64,000 nucleotides of DNA from Rhodothermales bacterium (GTDB lineage: Bacteria; Bacteroidota; Rhodothermia; Rhodothermales; VXPQ01): assembly GCA_951812335.1 (NCBI GenBank), contig OX638293.1, forward strand, positions 762,501-826,500. The letters run 5' to 3'. Position 1 is the first letter of the stretch. Every line of letters starts with the position of its first letter. Positions 431-36,817 of the stretch are shown here, piece by piece. The position numbers and the translations under genes are program-made. Below the pieces are notes generated by a model, which saw nothing but the letters and a program-made list of their open reading frames with translations, was not told the origin of the DNA and searched no databases.

Positions 431-3400
431 ATTATCTCCTTCCGGCTCCTTTTCCGGATCCAGCGAAACCAGCACGCCCTGCATCGCCACATAGTGGCCC
501 GCGTACGTGCAGATGAACGGGTAGTCGCCGGGCGGCGGCATGGTGAAGGTTACCTCTACGGTTTCCCCGGGTCCCGCCGTGGCGGTGTACGCAATGATTT
601 TCTCGTCGTGTTCCGGCGGAATGTAGTCGTGTTTTGCGGCGGTGAGGCCCGCCATGCCCACCGGGTTGATGTATTCCCAGTGTTCCAGCACGACCACGTT
701 GTGCGTCATGGCCGGCGAGGTGGCGTTGTTCACGAAGCGGATAGTGACAAGTTCGCCGGCTACAGCCTCGATGAACCGGGTGTCGAAGGCCATCTCATCC
801 CCTACGGAAGCGATCGTAATCACCCCGTCCCGGTCCGGGCGCGTACCTCCCCTCGAAGCGCCCGCTTCTTCCTCTGCACCCCCGGTCATGTCCATCGTCG
901 TTATTTCCCCGGTCAGGATGCCGCTCATCCGGTGGAACGCGACATGACCTACGGCTTCCTTGACGGCGCCCGTCATGGCGTCCGCGTTGTTCGCGGCCCG
1001 CAGGAATCCTCGCGCGTGTTTCGCGCCCGCAGCCGTGGCGGCGTGCGGAATCCATGCATCCCGGGCGTTTTCGGGCGCGGTGAGCATGGCGAATACGGCT
1101 GCCCCCGTCTCGTCGGAGGGAGGAGCATCCGCGAGGGCGAGCAAGGCGGCAAGCCGCACGCGCGCGTCTTCATCTTCCAGCACATTACTTGCCATCAAGG
1201 CGTCGCGTGAGGCGTCGGTCGGCGGCAGAACGCTTGCGGCGGCTCGACGCACGGCTGCGGAGGGATGGTTCAGCGCTTCCGCAGCGGCGCCGAAGGCTTC
1301 GTTATGGGCGCCGTCCAGCATGCCCAGGCCGTGCAGTGTCCACAAGGCATGCAATGCGCCCGGATTGAGGCCGAGGGAATCCATGGACGTATCGCGCACA
1401 AGGCCGTACAGGTCCATCGCCACATCCTGTTCGCCCCGCTCCACAAGGAGCCGCTGGGCCGTTTGCCGCCAGAACATGTTGTCGTGCCGGAGTGCGGCGA
1501 CGAGTTCCTGCGGCGAAGCGCCGGAGAGGTCCATGGTTTCGTCCGAAGCGGCATCCTTATGCACGATGCGATAGATGCGGCCGTGCTCGCGGTCCCGCAG
1601 ATCGGTCACGTACGCATTGTTTTGTCCGTGCTCCCAACCTTCCCGGAACGGACCGAGGTTATGTTGCGGGATGTAGTTGTACCAGTCGACCATCCAAAGT
1701 GCGCCGTCGGGGCCTACCTCGGCAAGGATGGGAATGGTCCACTCGTCGTCGCTGGCGAGCATGTTCCACTTGTTGAGCGCCTTGTAGTCGCTGCCGTCGG
1801 GCTCGATAGCGAATCGCCCCAGTGTGCGGACGGTCGGCCCGGCGACGAATGCGATGCGATTCCAGTATTCTTCGGGGAAATCGCGCGCCGTGTACAAGGC
1901 ATGTCCGGATGCGGCCGTGTAATTGCCTTTCCAGTCTCCCTGACGGGTGCGGGTCGTTACGGGGTGTACGCGCCGGTCTTCGGCAATAGTGCCGAGCCGG
2001 ACGGGGGTCCATCCGCGCACCGCCTCGTAATACCGATTCGGGACGGGCATGTATACGCTGGGATTGTTGTTGGCTGTCGAAGCAAACGCGATACCCTCCT
2101 CGCTGAAACCGAATCCCCAGGTGTTGTTGTTCGTCATCCGCACGAATTCAAGTTTGGCCCCGTCCGGTTTGAACCGGAAGAAGCCCATCGGGAATTGGTG
2201 GGATTCGCCGCCGACCGTTCCGTCGAAGCCCGAATAGCCCACGACGCCCCATATCCAGTTGTCGAAACCCATCCGGATGTTGTTGGGCCCCGCGTGGGTG
2301 TCGAACGTTCCCCAGCCCTCGAAAAGGACTTCCTGCACATCGGCTTTGTCGTCTCCGTCGGTGTCTTTCAGGAAGAAGGTATACGGCGCCTGTACCACCA
2401 CGACGCCGCCGTTCGCAAAGGCGAATCCGGTCGGGATGCTCAGGTTCTCGGCGAACACGTTGAACGAGTCGGCCCGGCCGTCTCCGTCGGTATCTTCAAG
2501 AATCGTGATACGGTCGTTGCCCTGTCCGACCTCTTCATGAAGCTGGTTCGGGTAATCGATGGTTTCTGCAATCCATAGTCTTCCGCGTTCGTCCCATGCC
2601 ATATAGATGGGCTTGACGATGTCGGGCTCCGCCGCAAAGAGTCGGATCTCGAATCCCGGCGGCGCCACCATGCGGGACATGGACGTTTCAATGTCCAGGG
2701 GCAGCTGCATGGGGCGCAGCTTGCGCTCGTTTTCCGGGTTCGAGTTGTATTCGAGAGAAGGCAGTACGGCGTCGACGTACTCGTACGGCATCGATCTGGG
2801 CACGACGTCGAGCGCCCAGTCTCCGGCGGCCCACTTGATGCCCCGTGCAACCAGTTGCTGGAATCCAGGCTGCGACCAGGTTCGTTCGTCGTGCCCCCAG
2901 GCCGTGTAGAAAACTCTTCCCTCGCCGTGCGTCCGCACCCATGTCCACGGCTCGGTGTGATCGCCCTCGCGGCGCACTTCGAGCACGGTGCGATCAGGGT
3001 TGTGGTTTGTGTGGATGTACGTTTCGTCCCAGCTTTCGAATTCCGGCACGCCGAGGATGGCGGGATGTGTCGGATCCGTGCGTTCCGTACGCACGACGCC
3101 GATACCGTGGCTGTCGAAGGCCGCGCCGACGAGCGCGATATAGGCCTCCGAGTTGCGAAACATGGCCGAGGCGCAATGCAGGGGGACGAATCCGCCGCCC
3201 TCCGCGACATACTCGAGCAGGGCCTGTTCCTGCGCGTCCGTCACTTCCAGATAGTTAGCGTAGAACGCCACCGCGTCGAATTGACGCAAGTTCTCGAGAT
3301 GGATGGTCTCGACTTCGTCCGTGTAGAAGATGTTCACGCCCATTGCGTACAGCGCCGAGATGATTTGCTGGGCGCGGGCTGCGGGTTGATGGTGCCCGTG

Positions 3401-3526
3401 GTCACCGAGGAACAGGACGGACACGGTAGACTGGTCGTCCGGCCGGAGCGCTGGCGAGGCGGTGGCGGCGGAACATAAAACGACGGTGAGAAGAAGAACG
3501 CCGGCAAAGGGAGCGAAACGACGCAT
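428..3526 (-). CDS. Exported ThuA / membrane-bound-dehydrogenase-type propeller / HEAT / azurin-like fusion protein
   Basis: A 1032-residue multidomain protein. The start at 3526 is chosen because it begins a clean signal peptide (MRRFAPFAGVLLLTVVL, then ASP); longer in-frame starts only add a non-hydrophobic leader that runs into the upstream gene. Domains in order: a ThuA/GATase-like domain (about 35-245), a propeller of the putative membrane-bound dehydrogenase type (about 290-690, with DTDGDGRAD-like acidic loops), HEAT-like repeats (about 700-880) and a C-terminal cupredoxin domain (about 910-1025). The cupredoxin carries THNVVV and CTYAGHYVAM, giving His, Cys, His and Met copper ligands as in azurin. 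Such proteins are known mainly from Planctomycetes and Bacteroidota and are thought to oxidise sugars or alcohols in the periplasm; the substrate is unknown. It follows a stand-alone ThuA gene by 49 bp, so the two probably form an operon. Confidence 0.85.
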   Translation of the reverse strand: MRRFAPFAGVLLLTVVLCSAATASPALRPDDQSTVSVLFLGDHGHHQPAARAQQIISALYAMGVNIFYTDEVETIHLENLRQFDAVAFYANYLEVTDAQEQALLEYVAEGGGFVPLHCASAMFRNSEAYIALVGAAFDSHGIGVVRTERTDPTHPAILGVPEFESWDETYIHTNHNPDRTVLEVRREGDHTEPWTWVRTHGEGRVFYTAWGHDERTWSQPGFQQLVARGIKWAAGDWALDVVPRSMPYEYVDAVLPSLEYNSNPENERKLRPMQLPLDIETSMSRMVAPPGFEIRLFAAEPDIVKPIYMAWDERGRLWIAETIDYPNQLHEEVGQGNDRITILEDTDGDGRADSFNVFAENLSIPTGFAFANGGVVVVQAPYTFFLKDTDGDDKADVQEVLFEGWGTFDTHAGPNNIRMGFDNWIWGVVGYSGFDGTVGGESHQFPMGFFRFKPDGAKLEFVRMTNNNTWGFGFSEEGIAFASTANNNPSVYMPVPNRYYEAVRGWTPVRLGTIAEDRRVHPVTTRTRQGDWKGNYTAASGHALYTARDFPEEYWNRIAFVAGPTVRTLGRFAIEPDGSDYKALNKWNMLASDDEWTIPILAEVGPDGALWMVDWYNYIPQHNLGPFREGWEHGQNNAYVTDLRDREHGRIYRIVHKDAASDETMDLSGASPQELVAALRHDNMFWRQTAQRLLVERGEQDVAMDLYGLVRDTSMDSLGLNPGALHALWTLHGLGMLDGAHNEAFGAAAEALNHPSAAVRRAAASVLPPTDASRDALMASNVLEDEDARVRLAALLALADAPPSDETGAAVFAMLTAPENARDAWIPHAATAAGAKHARGFLRAANNADAMTGAVKEAVGHVAFHRMSGILTGEITTMDMTGGAEEEAGASRGGTRPDRDGVITIASVGDEMAFDTRFIEAVAGELVTIRFVNNATSPAMTHNVVVLEHWEYINPVGMAGLTAAKHDYIPPEHDEKIIAYTATAGPGETVEVTFTMPPPGDYPFICTYAGHYVAMQGVLVSLDPEKEPEGDN

Positions 3527-3575
3527 GGCAGGAGTTGTGCGTTGGATGGAAAGCAATAGGGTGTGTGCGGGAGCG

Positions 3576-4325
3576 CTACGGGGTACGGCGGGCGGCCCAT
3601 TCCACGCTGTTGCGGAGGATACGGGCGTACGCAGGGTGCTGGTGCGCTGCGCCGTCATGGCCCAGCGTGTTTACGACGATCCGCCCGTTCGTATGGTGGA
3701 CGGTCCACACGATCGGGTATGTTTCGCCGGTTTCGACTTCTTCCGCTTCGGCGAGCACATGGATGGGCGAGCCCTCCGGGTCTCGTTCGGAGCGGTACAA
3801 TTCGTCTTCGATGGTGAATTCAGCCGGTACGTCCGCCATCACCGGATGGTCGGGTTCGATGACCTGCACCGTGAAGGTACCGTATTGCCGGTGGCTCCGG
3901 GACCCTCCGCCCACGAGTTCCCGGTTGTATTCCGGCCAGTCCGACCAGTTGTACCATGCTCCCGGATGTCCGATCACCAGCCCTTTGCCCGCCCCGACGA
4001 AATAAAACACGCCCTCGTGCAATTCCGGGTCGGTCATCGGCTGGTTCGTCACGATGCGGAGTACATTGAGCGTGTCGAGGGCGGGGAGTATGTGCGCCAG
4101 CATGTCGGTATAGGCCGCATGGATACCGGCTTCTCCGAGGACGCCCGCATCTTCCTCATGGAACCACCGGTCGAAATCGTGGGAACTGCCCCCTCCAGCC
4201 GTAAGGACGGAAATAGGGTCGGGCGCCTCGGACGCGGGAGTCTGCGCCTGCGCGTAGACGGATACGGTCAGGGTTGCGAATAGCAGGAAGCTCGCTCGCC
4301 CGGTAGCGTGCAAGAGCGTTGTCAT
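3576..4325 (-). CDS. Exported ThuA-domain protein
   Basis: A 249-residue protein with an N-terminal signal sequence ending near YAQAQT and a single ThuA-like (class I GATase-like fold) domain. Recognisable pieces are the early DFDRWFHEED segment, GAGKGLVIGHPGAW in the middle and VWTVHHTNGRIVVNTLGHD near the C-terminus, typical of the trehalose-utilisation ThuA superfamily in Bacteroidota and Planctomycetes. It lies directly upstream of the large fusion protein, which also starts with a ThuA domain, so the two probably act on the same periplasmic sugar substrate. The biochemical reaction of this subgroup is not established. Confidence 0.8.
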   Translation of the reverse strand: MTTLLHATGRASFLLFATLTVSVYAQAQTPASEAPDPISVLTAGGGSSHDFDRWFHEEDAGVLGEAGIHAAYTDMLAHILPALDTLNVLRIVTNQPMTDPELHEGVFYFVGAGKGLVIGHPGAWYNWSDWPEYNRELVGGGSRSHRQYGTFTVQVIEPDHPVMADVPAEFTIEDELYRSERDPEGSPIHVLAEAEEVETGETYPIVWTVHHTNGRIVVNTLGHDGAAHQHPAYARILRNSVEWAARRTP

Positions 4326-25437: not shown

Positions 25438-25830
25438 ATGAAACGTTTTTCCTTCATCCATCGCGTATTTCTCGTCTGTTCTCTGGCGGTCTTGCTTTTC
25501 AGCTCGGCCCCTGCGCAGGCCGAGAATCCTTCAGAATGCTTTGCCTCCTCTGTGGTGGCCTTTTTCGATTCGGCTCCTGACGCTCCTGTGCTCCTGGCCG
25601 AAGCTCCTGTGCTTTTGCCCGTTGTATTCTCCGAGGCCGGCTTGACCGTGGCGGAGACTGTCAATTTTTCGGATTCGACTGGTTTCCATGCCGAGCAGGA
25701 GCGTTGGGGTTGGTTTAGGAAGGCCGTGAGGTGGGTTTGTAGAAGAGCAGCGAATGTCGGTGGTTTTCTTTCCGGAAGCGATGGCGCTGAGCAAGACATG
25801 CTTCAGGGATGTGAGGATCGATGGGGTTGA
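25438..25830 (+). CDS. Small exported Trp/Cys protein of unknown family (130 aa)
   Basis: A 130-residue protein with a clear signal peptide ending near PAQAEN. The mature part begins with a Cys (PSECFAS), continues through an Ala/Val/Pro-rich stretch and ends in a cationic Trp-rich helix, ERWGWFRKAVRWVCRRA, followed by LQGCEDRWG. The two C-terminal Cys residues could form a disulfide. The arrangement (signal, low-complexity stretch, Trp/Lys/Arg helix with Cys, late Cys) resembles that of the proteins at 30255 and 35588 although sequence similarity is slight. A truncated copy follows at 26700-26955. I do not recognise the family; a secreted peptide, toxin or envelope protein are all possible. 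Confidence 0.7.
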   Translation: MKRFSFIHRVFLVCSLAVLLFSSAPAQAENPSECFASSVVAFFDSAPDAPVLLAEAPVLLPVVFSEAGLTVAETVNFSDSTGFHAEQERWGWFRKAVRWVCRRAANVGGFLSGSDGAEQDMLQGCEDRWG

Positions 25831-25874
25831 CGCTCCTTCGATTTGCTAATCCGTAGGCGATGTATTAATCTGCA

Positions 25875-25906
25875 GGGGCGCCCACGTTCATCGTCGTGGG
25901 TGCCCC
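25875..25906 (+). other. 12-bp stem-loop between the 130-aa and 223-aa genes, unit 1
   Basis: GGGGCGCCCACG and CGTGGGTGCCCC form a 12-pair stem with one G-T pair and an 8-base loop (TTCATCGT). No T-run follows, so it may be a processing or attenuation structure between two co-directional genes rather than a full terminator. It recurs in the other two units. Confidence 0.6.
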
Positions 25907-25955
25907 TGTCTTACTTGACCGCCTTCCTCGTTTCTGCTTTTTCAACCCAACCGTC

Positions 25956-26627
25956 ATGAAGCGCTTCTTCCTGCCCTCGCTGTTTTTTTTGATCCTGGGG
26001 ATTTTTTTGCCCGTTGGAACCCTCTTCGCACAAGACGAGGTCGATTGTAATCCGTATAAGAATGCGCAATTTCGACCGGATTTACAGATTTATCGTGTTA
26101 CCAATCCTGCTACGCGAATGCGTCTAATTCCGGCGAGAAAGCTTGGCGGGCTTGTTACAGATATAGATTTTATGATTGAAGATGGAGATGCTTTCGAAGA
26201 TATTGACCAGGCTATTCAGGAAATTCTTAATAATGATGATTTTATCCCTTTTAATCATAGAAAGACATTAGGATTTTATTTAGATTTATTACCTCCAATG
26301 ATTGAAAATTATGAACCATCTAATCAGGAGCGGATCGGATCTTATATTGACTATCTTATAAAAGAGGAAGGCTTAGGGATTGATTTGATTGCCAGGGCGC
26401 TTCCTCTTTTGCAGGGTTATTGGTCCGATGCTCGTATCGATTCCGTTGCTTCGGTAGCATATGCTGCAGCTTCGAAGATGCTTACGCTGTATGAGGAAGG
26501 CAGTTATCCTCCTGCAGTCGACAAAAAATACGCCAACTCCGGTAAGTATGATGAACGTGACTGGCCCTGTGTTGCGATGCTGTATCGCCCATTTCTGGAT
26601 GATCTTTCCTCCTTTATGCAGGACTGA
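25956..26627 (+). CDS. Exported 223-aa protein of unknown family, array copy 1
   Basis: A 223-residue protein; ATG 25956 begins a signal peptide ending near TLFAQD. The mature part starts DEVDCNPYK and is mostly predicted helical, with conserved blocks RPDLQIYR, RLIPARKL, QAIQEILNNDDFIPFNH, YEPSN-ERIG-YIDYL-KEEGLGIDL, LPLLQGYWSDARIDSVASVA and WPCVAMLYRPFLDDL. Two Cys (residues near 29 and 211) could pair. Copies 2 and 3 follow in tandem. I recognise no family; three copies suggest selection for dosage or diversity. Confidence 0.75.
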   Translation: MKRFFLPSLFFLILGIFLPVGTLFAQDEVDCNPYKNAQFRPDLQIYRVTNPATRMRLIPARKLGGLVTDIDFMIEDGDAFEDIDQAIQEILNNDDFIPFNHRKTLGFYLDLLPPMIENYEPSNQERIGSYIDYLIKEEGLGIDLIARALPLLQGYWSDARIDSVASVAYAAASKMLTLYEEGSYPPAVDKKYANSGKYDERDWPCVAMLYRPFLDDLSSFMQD

Positions 26628-26645
26628 AACGGCCTCGTGAGGAGC

Positions 26646-26697
26646 GTGTCCGCTAAACTGTGTGTACGGATGATCACGTACACAGTTTTCAGAACAC
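26646..26697. mobile_element. 52-bp end-to-end relic of the IS256-type element, unit 1
   Basis: GTGTCCGCTAAACTGTGTGT on the left and CACGTACACAGTTTTCAGAA, then CAC, on the right are the two terminal inverted repeats of the full element at 28652-29969, joined with almost nothing between. It lies at the same place, after the 223-aa gene, as the full element in unit 3. It is a deletion derivative or an empty precursor. Confidence 0.7.
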
Positions 26698-26699
26698 GG

Positions 26700-26955
26700 C
26701 CTTGACGCTCCTGTGCTCCTGGCCGAAGCTCCTGTGCTTTTGCCCGTTGTATTCTCCGAGGCCGGCTTGACCGTGGCGGAGACTGTCAATTTTTCGGATT
26801 CGACTGGTTTCCATGCCGAGCAGGAGCGTTGGGGTTGGTTTAAGAAGGTCGTGAGGTGGGTTTGCAGAAAAGCAGCGCGTCTCGGTGGTTTTCTCTCCGG
26901 AAGCTTTTCCGCTGAGCAAGACATGCTTCAGGGATGTGAGGACCGATGGGGTTGA
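26700..26955 (+). pseudogene. Truncated copy of the 130-aa exported-protein gene, unit 2
   Basis: From 26700 the sequence matches the 130-aa gene from codon 48 onward (APVLLAEAPVLLPVVFSE to the end, DMLQGCEDRWG), with the changes WFKKVVRWVCRKAARLGG. The signal peptide and the first third are missing; the 5' breakpoint falls at GACGCTCCT, a 9-base motif that also occurs at the 3' end of the intact gene. Without a signal peptide it is probably not functional, although the Trp/Cys helix is kept intact. Confidence 0.7.
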
Positions 26956-26999
26956 CGCTCCTTCGATTTGCTAATCCGTAGGCGATGTATTAATATCCG

Positions 27000-27031
27000 G
27001 GGGCGCTCACGTTCATCGTCGTGGGCGCCCC
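27000..27031 (+). other. 12-bp stem-loop, unit 2
   Basis: GGGGCGCTCACG and CGTGGGCGCCCC form the same hairpin as in unit 1 with a conserved loop TTCATCGT. One arm base and its opposite base changed between units (CCC/GGGT to CTC/GGGC), leaving pairing largely intact. Confidence 0.55.
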
Positions 27032-27080
27032 TGTCTTACTTGACCGCCTTCCTCGTTTCTGCTTTTTCAATCCAACCGTT

Positions 27081-27752
27081 ATGAAGCGCTTCTTCCCGCC
27101 CTCGCTGTTTTTTTTAATCCTGGGGATTTCTTTGCCCGTTGGAGTCCTCTTCGGACAAGACGAGGTCGATTGTAATCCGTATAAGCATGTGCAATATCGA
27201 CCGGATTTGCAGATTTATCGTGCTACCTATCCAACCACGCGAATGAGTTTAATTCCGGCAAGAAAACTTGCTAATCTGTCTATGAATATAGGTATTATGA
27301 TTGAAGATAAAGCTCCTCTTGAAATCGTTGATCAAGCTATTCAAGAAATTCTTTCGAATGATAATTTTTTTCCTTATAATCATAGCAAGGCATTATCATT
27401 TTATTTGAAAGATTTATTACCTCCAATGATTGAAGATTATGAACCGTCTAATAGAGAACGGATCGGATATTATATTGACTATCTTATGAAAGAGGAAGGT
27501 TTAGGGATTGATTTGATTGCCAAGGCGCTTCCTCTTTTGCAGGGTTATTGGTCCGATGCTCGTATCGATTCGGTTGCTTCGGTAGCGCATGCTGCAGCTT
27601 CGAAGATGCTTACGCTGTATGAGGAAGGCGGTTATCCTCCTCCGGCCAGAAAGGAACACGCCAACTCTGGTAAGTATGAACGCGACTGGGCGTGTGTCTC
27701 GATGCTGTATCGTCCATTTCTGGATGATCTTGCCTCCTTTATGGAGGACTGA
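27081..27752 (+). CDS. Exported 223-aa protein of unknown family, array copy 2
   Basis: A 223-residue paralogue of the copy at 25956 with the same signal peptide, the same two Cys and the same conserved blocks. It is almost identical to copy 3 and differs from copy 1 mainly in residues about 35-110 (for example ANLSMNIGIMIEDKAP and FFPYNHSKALSFYLKDLLPP). Its partner 130-aa gene is truncated. The three copies share their start region and the stem-loop about 50 bp upstream, so they are likely to be regulated alike. Confidence 0.75.
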   Translation: MKRFFPPSLFFLILGISLPVGVLFGQDEVDCNPYKHVQYRPDLQIYRATYPTTRMSLIPARKLANLSMNIGIMIEDKAPLEIVDQAIQEILSNDNFFPYNHSKALSFYLKDLLPPMIEDYEPSNRERIGYYIDYLMKEEGLGIDLIAKALPLLQGYWSDARIDSVASVAHAAASKMLTLYEEGGYPPPARKEHANSGKYERDWACVSMLYRPFLDDLASFMED

Positions 27753-27770
27753 AACGGCCTCGTGAGGGGC

Positions 27771-27822
27771 GTGTCCGCTAAACTATGCGTACGGATGATC
27801 ACGTACACAGTTTTCAGAGCAC
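27771..27822. mobile_element. 52-bp end-to-end relic of the IS256-type element, unit 2
   Basis: GTGTCCGCTAAACTATGCGT and CACGTACACAGTTTTCAGAG, then CAC, are again the two ends of the 28652-29969 element, 52 bp in total, directly after the second 223-aa gene. It equals the relic of unit 1 except for a few bases. Confidence 0.7.
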
Positions 27823-27874
27823 CGCCTTGAAGCTCCTTCGATTTGCTAATCCGTAGGCGATGTATTAATATCCG

Positions 27875-27906
27875 GGGGCGCTCACGTTCATCGTCGTGGG
27901 CGCCCC
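27875..27906 (+). other. 12-bp stem-loop, unit 3
   Basis: The same GGGGCGCTCACG / CGTGGGCGCCCC hairpin as in unit 2, now only about 50 bp downstream of the IS relic because the whole 130-aa gene has been lost in this unit. Confidence 0.55.
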
Positions 27907-27955
27907 TGCCTTACTTGACCGCCTTCCTCGTTTCTACTTTTTCAACCCAACCGGC

Positions 27956-28627
27956 ATGAAGCGCTTCTTCCCGCCCTCGCTGTTTTTTTTGATCCTGGGG
28001 ATTTCTTTCCCCGTTGGAGTCCTCTTCGGACAAGACGAGGTCGATTGTAATCCGTATAAGCATGTGCAATATCGACCGGATTTGCAGATTTATCGTGCTA
28101 CCTATCCAACCACGCGAATGAGTTTAATTCCGGCAAGAAAGCTTGCTAATCTGTCTATGAATATAGGTATTATGATTGAAGATAAAGCTCCTCTTGAATT
28201 CGTTGATCAAGCTATTCAAGAAATTCTTTCGAATGATAATTTTTTTCCTTATAATCATAGCAAGGCATTATCATTTTATTTGAAAGATTTATTACCTCCA
28301 ATAATTGAAGATTATGAACCGTCTAATAGAGAACGGATCGGATATTATATTGACTATCTTATGAAAGAGGAAGGTTTAGGGATTGATTTGATTGCCAAGG
28401 CGCTTCCTCTTTTGCAGGGTTATTGGTCCGATGCTCGTATCGATTCCGTTGCTTCGGTAGCGCATGCTGCAGCTTCGAAGATGCTTACGCTGTATGAGGA
28501 AGGCGGTTATCCTCCTGCGGCCAGAAAGAAATACGCCAACTCTGGTAAGTATGAACGCGACTGGGCGTGTGTCTCGATGCTGTATCGTCCATTTCTGGAT
28601 GATCTTGCCTCCTTTATGCAGGACTGA
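27956..28627 (+). CDS. Exported 223-aa protein of unknown family, array copy 3
   Basis: A 223-residue paralogue that differs from copy 2 at only a few positions (for example EFVDQ for EIVDQ, PPIIEDY for PPMIEDY, PAARKKY for PPARKEH, a final MQD for MED). It has the same signal peptide and Cys pair. In this unit the 130-aa partner is absent and the 3' IS relic is replaced by the complete IS256-family element. The near identity to copy 2 indicates recent duplication. Confidence 0.75.
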   Translation: MKRFFPPSLFFLILGISFPVGVLFGQDEVDCNPYKHVQYRPDLQIYRATYPTTRMSLIPARKLANLSMNIGIMIEDKAPLEFVDQAIQEILSNDNFFPYNHSKALSFYLKDLLPPIIEDYEPSNRERIGYYIDYLMKEEGLGIDLIAKALPLLQGYWSDARIDSVASVAHAAASKMLTLYEEGGYPPAARKKYANSGKYERDWACVSMLYRPFLDDLASFMQD

Positions 28628-29969: not shown

Positions 29970-30140
29970 GGCTCCCTAAAATTTCTTTAGCCGTCTTCCT
30001 CTGCCCAAGGCGGCATAGCTCGACGCAGCGCTGCACGTAAAAACGCTGGAAAAACTGTCCGGTTTTTTGGATCGTTTCTGCTCCGCAAATAGGACTATGT
30101 GTCAAGAGTTGTCTATAACTCCCAATTCGTAATGCATGCC

Positions 30141-30170
30141 TTGACATCGCAATAGTGAAGAGACTATAAT
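30141..30170 (+). promoter_or_regulatory. Consensus sigma70-type promoter, copy A
   Basis: TTGACA at 30141-30146 and TATAAT at 30165-30170 with an 18-base spacer, 85 bp before the 134-aa gene. Both hexamers equal the Escherichia coli consensus, and the region is conserved in three copies, which supports a real promoter. Confidence 0.65.
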
Positions 30171-30254
30171 GACTTCCACTTCACGGAAGGCATACGCATC
30201 ATTTCGTGGACGTTTCACTGTACGCTCGCTTTCAACTTACCTGGTGGCTCCGTT

Positions 30255-30659
30255 ATGAAAAACTTATTGCTCACCCTCGGCTGTGCGCTCATCGGCTTTC
30301 TGGCGATTGCACCTGTAACCGTGCATCAGGCTCGCGCAAATGCTGTTCCTGTGCCGACTACGTCCCCATTCGTTCCGACTTCCACTGCATCCATCGGAGC
30401 TCCTCCGGGTAGCTTCGGAGTAGACGCTTCAGCTCTATCACCTAGATGGTGGCGAAAATTTGTGGCTTGGGTTGATCGTCAGATTTGCCGGGCTACGGTA
30501 TATGTTTATGACAGAAATGAGAACGGTGTCATAGACTCTGAAGACCGCCCAGATCCTTCTGATTATCTGGATAATCCATACCTATGGGATAATTATGATG
30601 ATTATTATAGGTATTTGGGTTATAGTTATGAGTACTGTGATATGATTCGTGCTTCTTAG
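30255..30659 (+). CDS. Small exported protein with Trp-rich helix and EF-hand-type loop (134 aa)
   Basis: A 134-residue protein with a signal peptide ending near QARANA, a Pro/Ser/Thr-rich stretch, a Trp-rich amphipathic segment (PRWWRKFVAWVDRQICRA), and DRNENGVIDSED, which fits a 12-residue EF-hand calcium loop (Asp1, Asn3, Asn5, Gly6, Ile8, Asp9, Asp12). A Tyr/Asp-rich tail ends in CDMIRAS. Two Cys could form a disulfide. A paralogue with a shorter tail is at 35588. The family is not recognised; a calcium-responsive secreted or surface protein is an inference from the loop only. Confidence 0.7.
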   Translation: MKNLLLTLGCALIGFLAIAPVTVHQARANAVPVPTTSPFVPTSTASIGAPPGSFGVDASALSPRWWRKFVAWVDRQICRATVYVYDRNENGVIDSEDRPDPSDYLDNPYLWDNYDDYYRYLGYSYEYCDMIRAS

Positions 30660-31519: not shown

Positions 31520-31930
31520 TTGGAACAAACGGACCGAATCATGAATAAAGCACTTGGAAAAGCGCACCGCAACGGCATAAGCCTAATGCAATTGGCCGAC
31601 ATGTTTCCTGACGAGGGAGCGGCCCGAAAATGGTTCGAGACACGCATCTGGCCGGCCGGTCGCCATTGTCTGCGCTGCAAGAGCAGAAAGACGCGCGAAG
31701 CCTCTCACGCAAAAATGCCTTACTGGTGCACCGACTGCCACCCCCGCTCTTCCGTCAAGTTCGGCGCCGTTATGCAAGCATCGAAACCGCCGCTTCGCAA
31801 ATGGGTGTACGCCATGTACCTGCATATGACGAGCCTTAGGGGCGTATCCAACATGAAACCGCATCGGGATATAGGCGTCAGCCAGGATACGGCCTGGCAT
31901 CTGCTCCAACGCATCCACTCACTTAAACAT
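31520..31930 (+). pseudogene. IS1595-family transposase N-terminal relic
   Basis: About 135 codons encode the N-terminal part of an IS1595/ISXO2-type transposase: LMQLADMFPDEGAARKWFET, the zinc ribbon HCLRC...YWCTDC, and the helix-turn-helix-like stretch MKPHRDIGVSQDTAWHLLQR. It stops being transposase-like at LQRI and continues without a stop into the next gene (ATG 31940), forming a 357-codon chimeric open frame. Confidence 0.75.
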
Positions 31931-31939
31931 TTCAAAGCT

Positions 31940-32593
31940 ATGAACATATCGAAAAAAATATGTATACTTTTTTTGTTCATTTTGCCGAATCTTACCGTAT
32001 ACGGTCAGATTGAAGAAATTTATCAAAAAGGGCGCACTGAATGGATGAAAGCATTAGAATTTGCAGTCGAGGAAGCACAACTAAAAATTGAAGCAAATAA
32101 TCTATGGATTGCAGCGAGTAATAACAAAAAGGAAATTAAAGATTTAAAAAAAAATAACGAGACGCAAACAAAGCAAATAAATACTGTACAAAGAAGAATA
32201 AAGGGCTGGAAGGCAAGGAAAAAAAGTGATCATATCGCTCTAAGAAAAAATAAAGCAAGAGGATTTAAATTTTTTGGTAACATAGCAGGAATGAATTCTA
32301 TTGATTCTGAAAAATTCATTACCATATATCAAAAAAAAGAAAAAATAGCGAAAAAGAGAGCATTGGAAGATAATGAAGAAGCATGGCTTGAAGTAGCAGA
32401 AAAATGGCAAGAAGTACTAAATAAGGTAAATGAAGTAATGCACGCATCAGGTAACGCGGCACAGTATTTCTTTTTGGGGGCAGAGATGATGAAGCCCGGG
32501 ATAGTAATAGGAAACGATCAAGAGGCAAAAAGAGAAATGGAAAATTTCAAGCTACAGGTACTTCGTGAATTAGATGAAAACGGATCGTTTTAA
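31940..32593 (+). CDS. Exported coiled-coil protein of unknown function
   Basis: 217 residues from ATG 31940, which begins a signal peptide (MNISKKICILFLFILPN, cleavage near VYGQ). The mature part is very rich in Lys, Glu and Asn, and residues about 50-110 and 125-165 look like long charged helices or coiled coil (NNKKEIKDLKKNNETQTKQI). DNA here is A+T-rich. An open frame fuses it in phase to the upstream IS1595 relic, but the signal peptide argues for an independent start. Its end overlaps the start of the glycosyltransferase-like gene by 20 bp, indicating translational coupling and a joint role. Family not recognised. Confidence 0.65.
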   Translation: MNISKKICILFLFILPNLTVYGQIEEIYQKGRTEWMKALEFAVEEAQLKIEANNLWIAASNNKKEIKDLKKNNETQTKQINTVQRRIKGWKARKKSDHIALRKNKARGFKFFGNIAGMNSIDSEKFITIYQKKEKIAKKRALEDNEEAWLEVAEKWQEVLNKVNEVMHASGNAAQYFFLGAEMMKPGIVIGNDQEAKREMENFKLQVLRELDENGSF

Positions 32594-34367
32594 GGTACTA
32601 CACATTAGAGCAAACAACCTTGCGCCTGGTGTAGGATTGATTAGGTCGAATCGCGAGGGCTGCGTACGTACGTTGCCCCTGCACACCGTGCGATTGCTGC
32701 AGAGCCTGAAGGGATTCGCTTCCCTGAGGGAGCATGTTCAAAGCATGTCAAGGGCAACAGGCAGGGGCCATCCAGGTGAGGAAGGGACATGGCTGAGCCT
32801 TCTCAGAGATCTTGCAGAGGAAGGTTTTCTGCGACCAGAGAATGATGTGCGTCAACAAATCGATAGAATAGCACGAAATCGAAAGATATCTGAATCCGAC
32901 GCGACCGCTATCAGGCGTATAGGGATACCTACGGCGAGTCGGCCGGATTACCTAAAGAGAGCAATAGAAACATTCTCCGAACGAACACGGCGACACGGGC
33001 GTGAAGTAGGGTTCGTTGTGATGGACGATTCCAAGGAAGAAGCAGGCAGGTTACGAAACGTCGAAGTCGTCCGGATATTGAGAGAGAAAGCAAACATCGA
33101 TATTAAATATGTTGATCGGCACATGCGGGAAGCCCAAGCGCAAGAGATTATCCGGAAAAGCGGTGTTCCCGCAGAAGTGGTACGATTTGCTCTTTTTGGT
33201 CCAGAGGGAGCTACGGACACATACGGCGCTCCCAGGAATGCCCTGTTGCTTGAAACTTCTGGGGAAGCACACATCCAAACAGACGACGACACGACTGCAG
33301 AGATGCTCGAAGTTCCTTGTGCGGACAACGGATTAGCGCTAAGTGGGAAGCACCAGGCAGAGGATTGTACAATGTTCCGGGATCATCGTGAAATTGTCGA
33401 GACGTTCTGGACAGCAGACATAGATCCCCTTGCCATCCATGAGCGATTGCTTGGCAAACATCCCGGTGCTGTAATCGGGGAGTTCCTCGATATGAAAGCA
33501 TTCGTGAATATTGACGAGACCGAAGAGTCGATCCTGGACGCAATCGCTCGCCCGGATGCGAGAGTGGCGATATCGTTCACGGGAGCTGCTGGAGATACCG
33601 GTATGGACGAGTTCTATCACCGATTATTTCCAGGAGACAGTGAATACGAGCAACTTATTGAGAATGCCTTGAAGTACGACAGATTGCTACGATCAAGATA
33701 TGTATTGCGCATCGCCCCCAGATACGTAATCAACAATGGCCTATCCTGCGTGAGTATGAGCGTCGGCCTCGATAATCGAAGCCTTCTGCCGCCATTCATA
33801 ACTTGCGGCAGGAGCGGAGACACCATATTCGGTACACTTCTCAAGACATGCTTTCCCATGGCATTGAAGGGATATATGCCGAGATATGCAATCCAGCACA
33901 AGCCGGCAGTATTGAGGAGGCCTTATCAGGGCTCACCGGAATTTCCAAGACTGACTAGCAATCAATTGCTGATGTATTCGATAAGGCAATTCGCCAGGCA
34001 ACCGATCGGAGAAGGAGCAAGCGCTCTGCGAATGATCGGTACAATGCTAATGAACCTCGGAGAAATGCAACGGAGTCATTTTCTGGAGCACACAACCGCT
34101 ATCGTATCGGAAATAGTACGAGGACATGTATATCAGGGTACGAAAGCGCTGAACGAAGACGAGGACGGCCCAGATCAATGGGAGCGGGATATGCTTGGAT
34201 ACATTGACTCTGCTCTTGAAGCAGTCGAAGAACCCGGTTTTGGAGTACCGTCCGATTTACCCGGAAGCATATCGGAGCGTCTTGATACTTTCCAAAGGAG
34301 GACTGTACAGTTTGGAAAATTGCTCTGGTATTGGCCGGAGATGATGCACACCAGTGCACAAGTTTAG
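32574..34367 (+). CDS. Glycosyltransferase-like protein with PqqD-like N-terminal domain
   Basis: A 597-residue protein. Residues about 10-90 resemble a PqqD-like winged helix (TLPLHTVRLLQSLKGFASL, then WLSLLRDLAEEGFLRPEND), the fold that binds leader peptides in RiPP pathways. From about 112 a GT-A fold is suggested by RIGIPTASRPDYLKRAIETF, VVMDDSK and the DxD-type motif IQTDDDT near 237 after ALLLETSGEAH. Sugar and acceptor are unknown. It is coupled to the exported coiled-coil gene upstream. The TAG stop is followed by 61 further in-frame sense codons of protein-like composition. Alternative: an uncharacterised GT-like family with no catalytic role. Confidence 0.6.
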   Translation: MKTDRFKVLHIRANNLAPGVGLIRSNREGCVRTLPLHTVRLLQSLKGFASLREHVQSMSRATGRGHPGEEGTWLSLLRDLAEEGFLRPENDVRQQIDRIARNRKISESDATAIRRIGIPTASRPDYLKRAIETFSERTRRHGREVGFVVMDDSKEEAGRLRNVEVVRILREKANIDIKYVDRHMREAQAQEIIRKSGVPAEVVRFALFGPEGATDTYGAPRNALLLETSGEAHIQTDDDTTAEMLEVPCADNGLALSGKHQAEDCTMFRDHREIVETFWTADIDPLAIHERLLGKHPGAVIGEFLDMKAFVNIDETEESILDAIARPDARVAISFTGAAGDTGMDEFYHRLFPGDSEYEQLIENALKYDRLLRSRYVLRIAPRYVINNGLSCVSMSVGLDNRSLLPPFITCGRSGDTIFGTLLKTCFPMALKGYMPRYAIQHKPAVLRRPYQGSPEFPRLTSNQLLMYSIRQFARQPIGEGASALRMIGTMLMNLGEMQRSHFLEHTTAIVSEIVRGHVYQGTKALNEDEDGPDQWERDMLGYIDSALEAVEEPGFGVPSDLPGSISERLDTFQRRTVQFGKLLWYWPEMMHTSAQV

Positions 34368-34550
34368 GGCACCGCCAACGTTTGGCTGAATCTCCTCGGG
34401 CATCTCGTATCATTTCTCCCGACCCTTGATCCGGAAGCATGTGCGGTGCTCGAGCGTGAGTGGGCTCGGCGTGGTCCGCACCCTCGTGTTCCTGCAATGC
34501 ATCCCATTCGACGACAAGTTGCGCCTCCTCGGCCTAAAGTTAATGGACGG
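34368..34550 (+). other. Open in-frame tail after the TAG stop of the glycosyltransferase-like gene
   Basis: Reading through the TAG at 34365 gives 61 codons (GTANVWLNLLGHLVSFLPTL, DPEACAVLEREWARRG and so on) before TGA at 34551. The composition looks like a protein C-terminus. This could be an ancestral C-terminus cut off by a stop mutation, a readthrough extension or chance. The rest of the gap to 34663 shows no gene. Confidence 0.35.
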
Positions 34551-34663
34551 TGAAGTTGTCAAATACTTCTAAAAATGTAATCTCACGGAACATATTACAA
34601 AACATTGCTTAATTCCGTGCGGAAAACACGAAAAAATCAGATGTACAGCAACATGGGGTCGAA

Positions 34664-35176
34664 ATGCCATATATATCTTACCCCCCCCCCCCCCCCCCGA
34701 ATTCACATAAATTTAACAAAAAGGTACTTGAAAATGAGATCATAGAAAAAGCCTGCAAAGATTTTCTTAAAACGGAGGCCTCACATGCGGAAAAGATCGA
34801 TATCCTGCTCGCGCTCAGATATATTCATGAGAACCTTCTGTCGCCTTCCTTGTCCGTAAAGAAGGTAATCGAACAACGCAACATTCGGACCCACAACTTC
34901 TACGACCGATTCGCAGGCGAAGTTACGCTGAACGGTAATGCACGAAGAACGCCCGGAGAATACATAGCATGGGCGCGCATCCATGTGGCGCGGCGCATAC
35001 TCGAGCATGGCGCCTGTAATTTGAAGGAACTGGCGTCCGCGGTCGGATTCAATTCGTACCGAAGTTTCTATCGGGCGTGCCGCAAGCATCTCGGCTGCAA
35101 ACCGTCGGAAGCGGCGAAAATGGTTCAAGGCGCGTATCTGGCCGGCCGGTCGCCATTGCCCGCGCTGCGAGCGTAG
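34664..35176 (+). CDS. AraC-type transcription regulator with poly-C tract in its start (probably phase-variable)
   Basis: 170 codons. Codons 6-12 span a run of 18 C (34681-34698) that encodes six Pro. The C-terminal region (about 60-150) has an AraC-type double helix-turn-helix: NIRTHNFYDRF, TPGEYIAWARIHVARRIL and LKELASAVGFNSYRSFYRAC. With C18 the frame is open from ATG 34664; C17 or C19 closes it from that start, while C19 or C16 would instead connect upstream ATGs at 34641 and 34653. The last 18 codons come from an IS1595 relic read out of frame, so the C-terminus has been altered. It probably controls neighbouring exported-protein genes, by inference from location. Confidence 0.65.
   Translation: MPYISYPPPPPPNSHKFNKKVLENEIIEKACKDFLKTEASHAEKIDILLALRYIHENLLSPSLSVKKVIEQRNIRTHNFYDRFAGEVTLNGNARRTPGEYIAWARIHVARRILEHGACNLKELASAVGFNSYRSFYRACRKHLGCKPSEAAKMVQGAYLAGRSPLPALRA
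34681..34698. repeat. Homopolymeric C18 tract
   Basis: Eighteen consecutive C residues inside the start of the AraC-type gene. Such tracts are classic slipped-strand contingency sequences. No other run of comparable length was noticed in the window. Confidence 0.9.
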
Positions 35177-35297
35177 AAGGACGCGCGAAGCCTCTCATGC
35201 AAAAATGTCCTACTGGCGCACCGACTGCCGTTGCTACTTTTCCGTTAAGGTCGGCGCCGTTACGCAGGTGTCGAAACTGCCGCTTCGCAAATGGGTC
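35116..35297 (+). mobile_element. IS1595-family relic (zinc-ribbon region)
   Basis: DNA matches 31627-31810 (AAATGGTTC, ATCTGGCCGGCCGGTCGCCA, CTCATGCAAAAATG) with several stops and frameshifts, so only the zinc-ribbon part of the transposase remains. It truncates the AraC-type gene and runs into the IS3 end of duplication copy C. Confidence 0.7.
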
Positions 35298-35473
35298 GTG
35301 TGGGAGAAGCAAACGAAAACCGCTGCCCAGGGCGGCATAACCCAACGCAGCGCTACACGTAAAACGCTGGAAAAAATGTCTGAAGTGGTTTAGTATTTAT
35401 CGGACCGTTTATGTCCCGCAAATAGGACTATGTGTCAAGAGTTGTCTATAACTCCCAATTCGTAATGCATGCC

Positions 35474-35503
35474 TTGACATCGCAATAGTGAAGAGACTAT
35501 AAT
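35474..35503 (+). promoter_or_regulatory. Consensus sigma70-type promoter, copy C
   Basis: TTGACA at 35474-35479 and TATAAT at 35498-35503 with an 18-base spacer, 85 bp before the 116-aa gene, identical to copy A. Confidence 0.65.
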
Positions 35504-35587
35504 GACTTCCACTTCACGGAAGGCATACGCATCATTTCGTGGACGTTTCACTGTACGCTCGCTTTCAACTTACCTGGTGGCTCCGTT

Positions 35588-35938
35588 ATGAAAAACTTAT
35601 TGCTCACCCTCGGCTGTGCGCTCATCGGCTTTCTGGCGATTGCACCTGTAACCGTGCATCAGGCTCGCGCAAATGCTGTTCCTGTGCCGACTACGTCTCC
35701 ATTCGTTCCGACTTCCACTGCATCCATCGGAGCTCCTCCGGGTAGCTTCGGAGTAGACGCTTCAGCTCTATCACCTAAATGGTGGCGAAAATTTGTGGCT
35801 TGGGTTGATCGTCAGATTTGCCGGGCTACGGTATATGTTTATGACAGAAATGAGGACGGTGTCATCAACTCTGAAGACTACGAAAATTACCCATACGAAT
35901 GGGGTTATGATGAATGTGATATGATTCGTGCTTCTTAG
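35588..35938 (+). CDS. Small exported protein with Trp-rich helix and EF-hand-type loop (116 aa), paralogue
   Basis: Identical to the 134-aa protein at 30255 for the first 80 or so residues except Arg to Lys in PKWWRKF. The loop reads DRNEDGVINSED (Asn5 to Asp and Asp9 to Asn, still EF-hand-compatible). The Tyr/Asp-rich tail is 18 residues shorter (YENYPYEWGYDE) but both end in CDMIRAS. Variation confined to the tail and loop suggests that the tail tolerates or favours change. Function unknown. Confidence 0.7.
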   Translation: MKNLLLTLGCALIGFLAIAPVTVHQARANAVPVPTTSPFVPTSTASIGAPPGSFGVDASALSPKWWRKFVAWVDRQICRATVYVYDRNEDGVINSEDYENYPYEWGYDECDMIRAS

Positions 35939-36012: not shown

Positions 36013-36118
36013 TATTAAGAGTTCTAGTAATTACAAAAAAGTATGATAAAGAGGTGGTTTTTTGATTAAAAATTCATTATGAATGCATCTTTTTTGTATG
36101 TTTTTAATGTCCATAACC

Positions 36119-36817
36119 ATGAACATCCAGGAATTCAAAAATCGTATTCGCCAGAACATACGAATAATCAATGATCCCGACGGTGCTGCCGAGGTATTGA
36201 GTATATCCGCCCAAGCGCTCCGGAAACGGTTCAGGCAGGAAGCGCATGATCGTCTATGGATGTTCATCCTGAAGCAGAAGGTAGCACACTTTCTGGAGAA
36301 TTTGCATCCCTACCCAACGGGAGAAAACGGGCAATTCCCTACTGCGGAAAAAGTCATTGATTTGTACTGCTCTGTATTACCTGATCCTGATCGTACATGG
36401 TTTAGAGATGTGCAAGAAATAATTACATTGATAAACGATAATCCGTTCGATTTCAATCTCAATGTAGCCTGGATCAAGAATGAATTAAATATTCAAGACA
36501 AGATGTATACGCAGAGATTTAACTACTTCACACGTATGCGTGTGACGGAATATATCCGATGGCATCGGCTGATCATGGCAAAACATCTGCTTTCCCATTC
36601 TTCTCTGAAAATAGGAGACATCGCGCTGCTGATCGGATACAACTCGCTTTCCGCTTTCTCCAAGGCGTTTGCTAAGGATGTGGGCTTTTCTCCGAAGATA
36701 TATCGAGCAACCCATCCGGTGCACTCTTCTCGAAATTCTACTCAAGCCGATCTCGTCCAGGAGACGAAGGCCTTCATCGCGAAGAGCGAATCGTTGAAAC
36801 GGAAGGCCTCCGGATGA
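36119..36817 (+). CDS. AraC-type transcription regulator
   Basis: 232 residues from ATG 36119 (an alternative in-frame ATG lies 12 codons earlier). The C-terminal 100 residues form an AraC-type DNA-binding domain: NVAWIKNELNIQDKMYTQRF, RVTEYIRWHRLIMAKHLL and IGDIALLIGYNSLSAFSKAF, ending with FSPKIYR. The N-terminal part (about 20-60) has another helix-turn-helix-like stretch (AAEVLSISAQALRKRF). No ligand-binding cupin is present. It is beside the exported-protein copy C and ends 28 bp from the convergent sulfatase gene; its target is unknown. Confidence 0.8.
   Translation: MNIQEFKNRIRQNIRIINDPDGAAEVLSISAQALRKRFRQEAHDRLWMFILKQKVAHFLENLHPYPTGENGQFPTAEKVIDLYCSVLPDPDRTWFRDVQEIITLINDNPFDFNLNVAWIKNELNIQDKMYTQRFNYFTRMRVTEYIRWHRLIMAKHLLSHSSLKIGDIALLIGYNSLSAFSKAFAKDVGFSPKIYRATHPVHSSRNSTQADLVQETKAFIAKSESLKRKASG

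Follow-up and report, generated by a model that had tools for sequence, protein, structure and literature searches.

Slipped-strand contingency loci have been described mostly from pathogens. Campylobacter, Helicobacter and Neisseria have SSR phasomes in which poly-G/C tracts lie in genes for modification enzymes, glycosyltransferases and surface proteins. One paper argues that homopolymer tracts near the 5' ends of genes act as a general prokaryotic mechanism (PMC2831843). The nearest known regulators to the one described here are bvgS and Spy1337. In Bordetella pertussis, bvgS is a phase-variable master regulator with a C6/C7 tract; one extra base truncates it and silences its regulon (PMC1891110). 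Spy1337 of Streptococcus pyogenes is an AraC-type regulator with a variable T tract (PMC7098570).

The window, a stretch of 64,000 nucleotides from a Rhodothermales bacterium, encodes a stand-alone AraC-type regulator with a run of 18 C near its coding start. We consider it probable (roughly 0.75) that this run is a slipped-strand contingency tract which would switch translation of the regulator ON and OFF. As in bvgS, a C homopolymer is found inside the coding sequence of a regulator. However, bvgS encodes a sensor kinase and its C6 tract is short, whereas the present protein is a stand-alone AraC domain, the tracts are 11-18 C long, and there are several independent copies per genome. As in Spy1337, a homopolymer is here proposed to control a regulator of the AraC family with an exported protein gene linked to it; the Spy1337 tract is intergenic and alters transcription, whereas the present tract lies within the 5' coding region, where a change of length would shift the reading frame. 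The genome holding the window is labelled G000 and the related genomes G001 to G005. The regulator and its leader comprise:

34550 to 35122, + strand: homology unit in common with the paralogs at G000:C1:220843 and 1512238, about 80% DNA identity
34559 to 34581, + strand: conserved block TCAAATACTTCTAAAAATGTAAT, a probable promoter/operator, essentially only 5' of the regulator family
34641 to 34655, + strand: upstream ATGs 34641 and 34653, in one shared frame; ATGs are conserved at these positions in the paralogs
34664 to 34666, + strand: ATG of the C18 allele; an interrupted G003 copy and the tract-free copy that opens a G004 contig both have its equivalent in frame
34664 to 35176, + strand: AraC-type regulator ORF as assembled, 170 amino acids, ON with C18
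34681 to 34698, + strand: C18 homopolymer, which sets the frame; homologous copies have C13, C12, C11 or an interrupted tract
34700 to 35119, + strand: conserved part of the protein, with an N-terminal helix and an AraC DNA-binding domain (two helix-turn-helices), without a sensor domain
35107 to 35295, + strand: remnant of an IS1595 transposase, joined to the ORF at its 3' end

The tract is far beyond chance length. The first-pass annotation of this DNA reported C18 at 34681-34698; inspection of the sequence places it there, within the ORF 34664-35176, and it is the only run of C10 or longer in the window. Nine C10 positions are observed in the window versus 0.26 expected from shuffled sequence, and a C run of 3-6 has an extension chance of 0.25-0.14 per base (C18 tract left out). 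There is no other run of C14 or longer across the 2,686,407-base genome. Exact C runs in G000, counted on both strands, drop about tenfold per added base (C7, 176; C8, 19; C9, 3), and less than one run over C9 is expected; beyond C9 there are only C11, C12, C13 and C18. Three of these four belong to the three copies of the regulator gene. The other, at G000:C1:2684532 (L177), is G11 on the coding strand. In an M15-peptidase protein, it immediately follows the lipoprotein signal, shifts the frame and is out of frame as assembled; it is a candidate fourth switch in G000.

Tract length sets the reading frame. Reading from ATG 34664, 17 + n + 1 is divisible by three only if n is a multiple of three; C16 or C19 would instead join the upstream ATGs 34641/34653 to the gene. 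This arithmetic had been given in the annotation and was recovered on recomputation. The window copy, as assembled, is ON from ATG 34664, and the two upstream ATGs yield with C18 only a short peptide, ending in MGSKCHIYLTPPPPPRIHINLTKRYLKMRS before a stop. The tract is preceded by start codons that are conserved and followed by the conserved DNA-binding domain.

The AraC-type identity is confirmed by two profiles which both exceed their gathering cut-offs: HTH_18 (E 9.8e-15; 55.1 bits versus 33.6) and HTH_AraC (E 4.2e-8; 33.6 bits versus 26.6). The ORF 34664-35176 had been taken as the regulator throughout; this stands for most of its length, but the last ~17 codons (about 35120-35176) come from the IS1595 transposase remnant. 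The predicted model of the 140-amino-acid conserved part has seven helices (pLDDT 80), with two helix-turn-helices in an AraC DNA-binding fold. Its best Foldseek matches are AraC-type DNA-binding domains, MarA and SoxS among them, with E-values of only 6e-3 or weaker and a TM of about 0.67-0.82 versus isolated-domain targets. The predicted fold is like MarA and SoxS in its DNA-binding domain and in having no ligand domain; it is unlike them in its sequence (about 20% identity), its additional N-terminal helix, and the poly-C tract which precedes this helix. A sensor or ligand-binding domain is present in many AraC/XylS members, though not in all. None was matched in the about 30-45 amino acids ahead of the AraC domain, and no NCBIfam equivalog was above cut-off for the regulator. 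The regulator is a bare DNA-binding domain without a sensor, and expression is thus its only evident control. Slippage during replication would change the tract length within a population; each change would shift the reading frame and turn translation ON or OFF. As the protein lacks a ligand domain, its regulon would be switched together with its expression.

The homology unit (about 34550-35122) takes in the conserved upstream block. This block, TCAAATACTNCTAAAAATGTAAT (34559-34581), is kept between species and is found in the six genomes essentially only before regulator copies. A regulon search with the 23-bp block returned regulator copies and one copy cut by a contig end; a single further match, with 3 mismatches, is not ahead of a regulator-family gene, and the block was not found at the exporter genes described below. 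We infer that it is likely to be a promoter or an autoregulatory site.

G000 has two paralogs of the regulator, at C1:220990 (+) and C1:1512671 (-), with 74% protein identity. At exactly the equivalent place they have tracts of C12 followed by GG, and of C13. The G002 copy has C11 at this position. In one G003 copy the tract is interrupted as CCCCCTCCCTCCC and remains in frame; another G003 copy is on contig C47, which stops just ahead of the expected tract (...CCGTCTTATTT). There are three tract-free copies: G004:C1:2707098, G003:C35, and one at the start of a G004 contig, which is truncated about 70 codons in. Comparison of related genomes for length variants, as had been suggested, thus gives C18, C13, C12, C11 and an interrupted tract at one conserved position. 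In the assembled sequences the window copy is ON, as are the interrupted copy of G003 and all three copies without a tract. The C13, C12 and C11 copies are OFF, being in frame with no upstream ATG; each would need one more C to be in frame with the counterpart of ATG 34664 (for the G002 C11 copy, the shortfall is counted from the nearest upstream ATG but one). Length therefore differs among copies and species, with both ON and OFF alleles. The mix of states across copies is suggestive; the state of any individual copy is uncertain, since assembled lengths of long C runs may err by a base or two. The family members without a tract (two G004 copies and G003:C35) count against a switch. Poly-proline was considered as the selected feature and ruled out: the tract-free copies have no poly-proline, yet are in frame at the start, and every codon of the tract is CCC.

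The regulator family was found by a genome-contig scan in three Rhodothermales MAGs only, with in addition a weak 27% match in a Marinagarivorans MAG. Other genera of Rhodothermales gave generic AraC-domain matches only. A phage origin was considered, and the gene family was not found among viral contigs.

The tract, or its exact length, could be a sequencing or assembly artefact in a gene that is normally in frame. Long C runs are error-prone; G000 is a single MAG contig with the sequencing technology not given, in which C18 may be miscounted by a base or two; and the three OFF alleles are each exactly one base short, which could reflect systematic under-calling and counts against a switch. 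However, poly-C occurs at the same place in two paralogs and in an independently assembled congener (G002, C11), and the contig of another congener (G003 C47) breaks there. An error would not strike one and the same position throughout a gene family, and the annotation's own worry over an artefact is largely answered by these independent assemblies; the explanation is quite unlikely, although exact counts stay uncertain. It is unlikely also that the copies are decaying pseudogenes in an IS-rich island and the tract neutral debris. IS1595 remnants and transposase fragments do surround the window copy, its C-terminus is fused to an IS remnant, and two of the three G000 copies are out of frame as assembled. 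Nevertheless, comparing the three G000 copies in pairs gives dN/dS of 0.054/0.19, 0.14/0.41 and 0.14/0.63 (ratios of 0.2-0.35), and there is no stop over 140 codons, which span the domain, in any of them, the OFF ones included. With their codons thus conserved, the OFF copies are not decaying. The upstream block and the position of the tract are also conserved, the latter across species.

Programmed slippage of RNA polymerase or the ribosome would make every allele yield in-frame and out-of-frame products in fixed proportion, with no heritable switch. All long-tract copies do read through the homopolymer, with start codons in two frames. Programmed slippage usually needs sites of conserved length and sequence. 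Tract length is not conserved here, and the tract-free copies manage without it; this mechanism is therefore improbable. Alternatively, the C run might lie in an untranslated leader or promoter, where its spacing tunes expression from a true start further downstream; poly-C promoter spacers are known, such as that of fetA in Neisseria (PMC5320596). This is very unlikely: there is no in-frame ATG, GTG or TTG for about 50 codons past the window tract, and the protein right after the tract (NSHKFN...) is conserved. The phase-variable switch put forward in the annotation is supported by the length differences among paralogs and congeners, by the presence of ON and OFF alleles, and by the constrained coding sequence downstream. 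The regulator would then be one of a small gene family, several of whose members each have their own switch.

The neighbourhood of the window copy includes:

32574 to 34367, + strand: 597-amino-acid protein, 38% identical to part of an 807-amino-acid C39-like protein beside a paralog
34347 to 35446, no strand: segment with the regulator and the IS1595 remnant, in place of which the collinear island of G005 has 104 bases
35588 to 35938, + strand: small exported protein (MKNLLLTLGC...) with 79% identity to the 30255-30659 protein

A second copy of the IS1595 remnant lies at 31615-31806. The 597-amino-acid protein has an 85% identical orthologue in G005, and nothing in NCBIfam matched it. One paralog (L046) adjoins a C39 peptidase ABC exporter, a thioredoxin-like protein and a membrane protein, as well as a small protein with a GG-like leader and the 807-amino-acid protein, which has a C39-like N-terminus. 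The G002 copy (L048) is beside the same exporter cassette. Remnants of the 807-amino-acid gene are found about 6 kb from the second paralog (L047) and adjoining the G005 copy. Five of the ten copies are thus near peptide-export genes: the C39 ABC exporter (L046, L048), or the 807/597-amino-acid companion (window, L047, G005). In L046 the GG-leader-like protein is encoded at 3689-4060 and the 807-amino-acid protein at 1227-3650; the catalytic Cys of the C39-like domain is apparently now Ser, and the C-terminal part is glycosyltransferase-like by eye. L046 is possibly a modified-peptide secretion locus.

The annotation had placed the tract in an island of amplified exported proteins. The segment at about 34347-35446 is missing from the G005 island, which is collinear with window positions 30113-30473, 31919-34346 and 35446-35806, minus 1.1 kb with the regulator and the IS remnant. 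The regulator therefore entered or left an existing island, and its neighbours in the window are not necessarily its targets. That the regulon would include nearby peptide-export or exported-protein genes is the least certain part of the proposal. The amplified small exported proteins of the window (25438-28624, and 30255-30659 / 35588-35938) are about 79-80% identical; there are three copies of a 243-amino-acid family, two of a 130-amino-acid family and two of 134/116 amino acids. A second AraC-type regulator, of 244 amino acids and without a tract, is encoded at 36083-36817. Its 72% identical homologue in G005 (L055 1874-2605) adjoins homologues of the window exported proteins 25438-25830 and 25896-26627, and it may for this reason be the local regulator of the amplified exported proteins.

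The annotation had also described poly-C contingency tracts as known from pathogens but rarely from environmental sulfatase-rich bacteria; in this genus, tracts of a contingency-like kind are not rare. There are 27 runs of C10-C13 in G001 and 28 in G002, where less than one is expected in each; these counts leave out arrays at contig ends and the tract of the G002 AraC-family copy, and each assembly is in about 50 contigs. Poly-C arrays at contig ends of G001, G002 and G003 were excluded, as they look like short-read artefacts. C9 runs number only 6 in G001 and 5 in G002; such a reversed length distribution is not given by chance. By coding score, nearly half of the runs in these two genomes are at gene starts, and others split genes between frames. 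The tract loci are L101-L159. Among the tract-bearing genes are a methyltransferase of type III (E 3e-114) and one of type I (E 9e-205); others encode type IIG restriction-methylation enzymes, HmaB (Hma defence), N6/N4 methyltransferases with HNH, glycosyltransferases, a TonB receptor and Calx-beta exported proteins. Homologous genes of G001 and G002 have tracts of unequal length, for example C12 versus C11 in type IIG, C12 versus C11 in HmaB, and C13 versus C11 in an N6/N4 methyltransferase. G003, G004 and G005 show little of this pattern, and no homologues of one tract-bearing methyltransferase were found in G000. In L104, L133 and L139 a repeated sequence with C10-C11 has a ARTRNPLGHNEE-like frame ahead of the tract; it occurs several times in G001 and G002 with different downstream sequences and is possibly a duplicated 5' module.

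The tract genes of G001 and G002 have the make-up of a classical phasome, one that is apparently genus-wide. As in Campylobacter, Helicobacter and Neisseria, tracts fall in type I/III methyltransferases, type IIG enzymes, glycosyltransferases and exported proteins; unlike those phasomes, they occur in uncultured Rhodothermales. MAG deposits of this sort from the Rhodothermales often come from sponges. The tract-bearing DNA methyltransferases are possibly phasevarions. The odds are about even that the genus runs a full poly-C/G phasome comparable to those of mucosal pathogens, reduced in G000 to three independently switching AraC copies and the lipoprotein peptidase, with at most eight regulator states. 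No paper linking Rhodothermales with phase variation was found in the literature searched, which is not proof of novelty.

The mechanism itself is of a known kind; the novelty lies in the host lineage, in the multi-copy arrangement and in a phasome that is apparently genus-wide. If the switch is real, bet-hedging by poly-C tracts would extend well outside the pathogens, to an uncultured lineage not known as pathogenic. The same gene classes would be found behind the tracts, together with a multi-copy phase-variable transcription factor.
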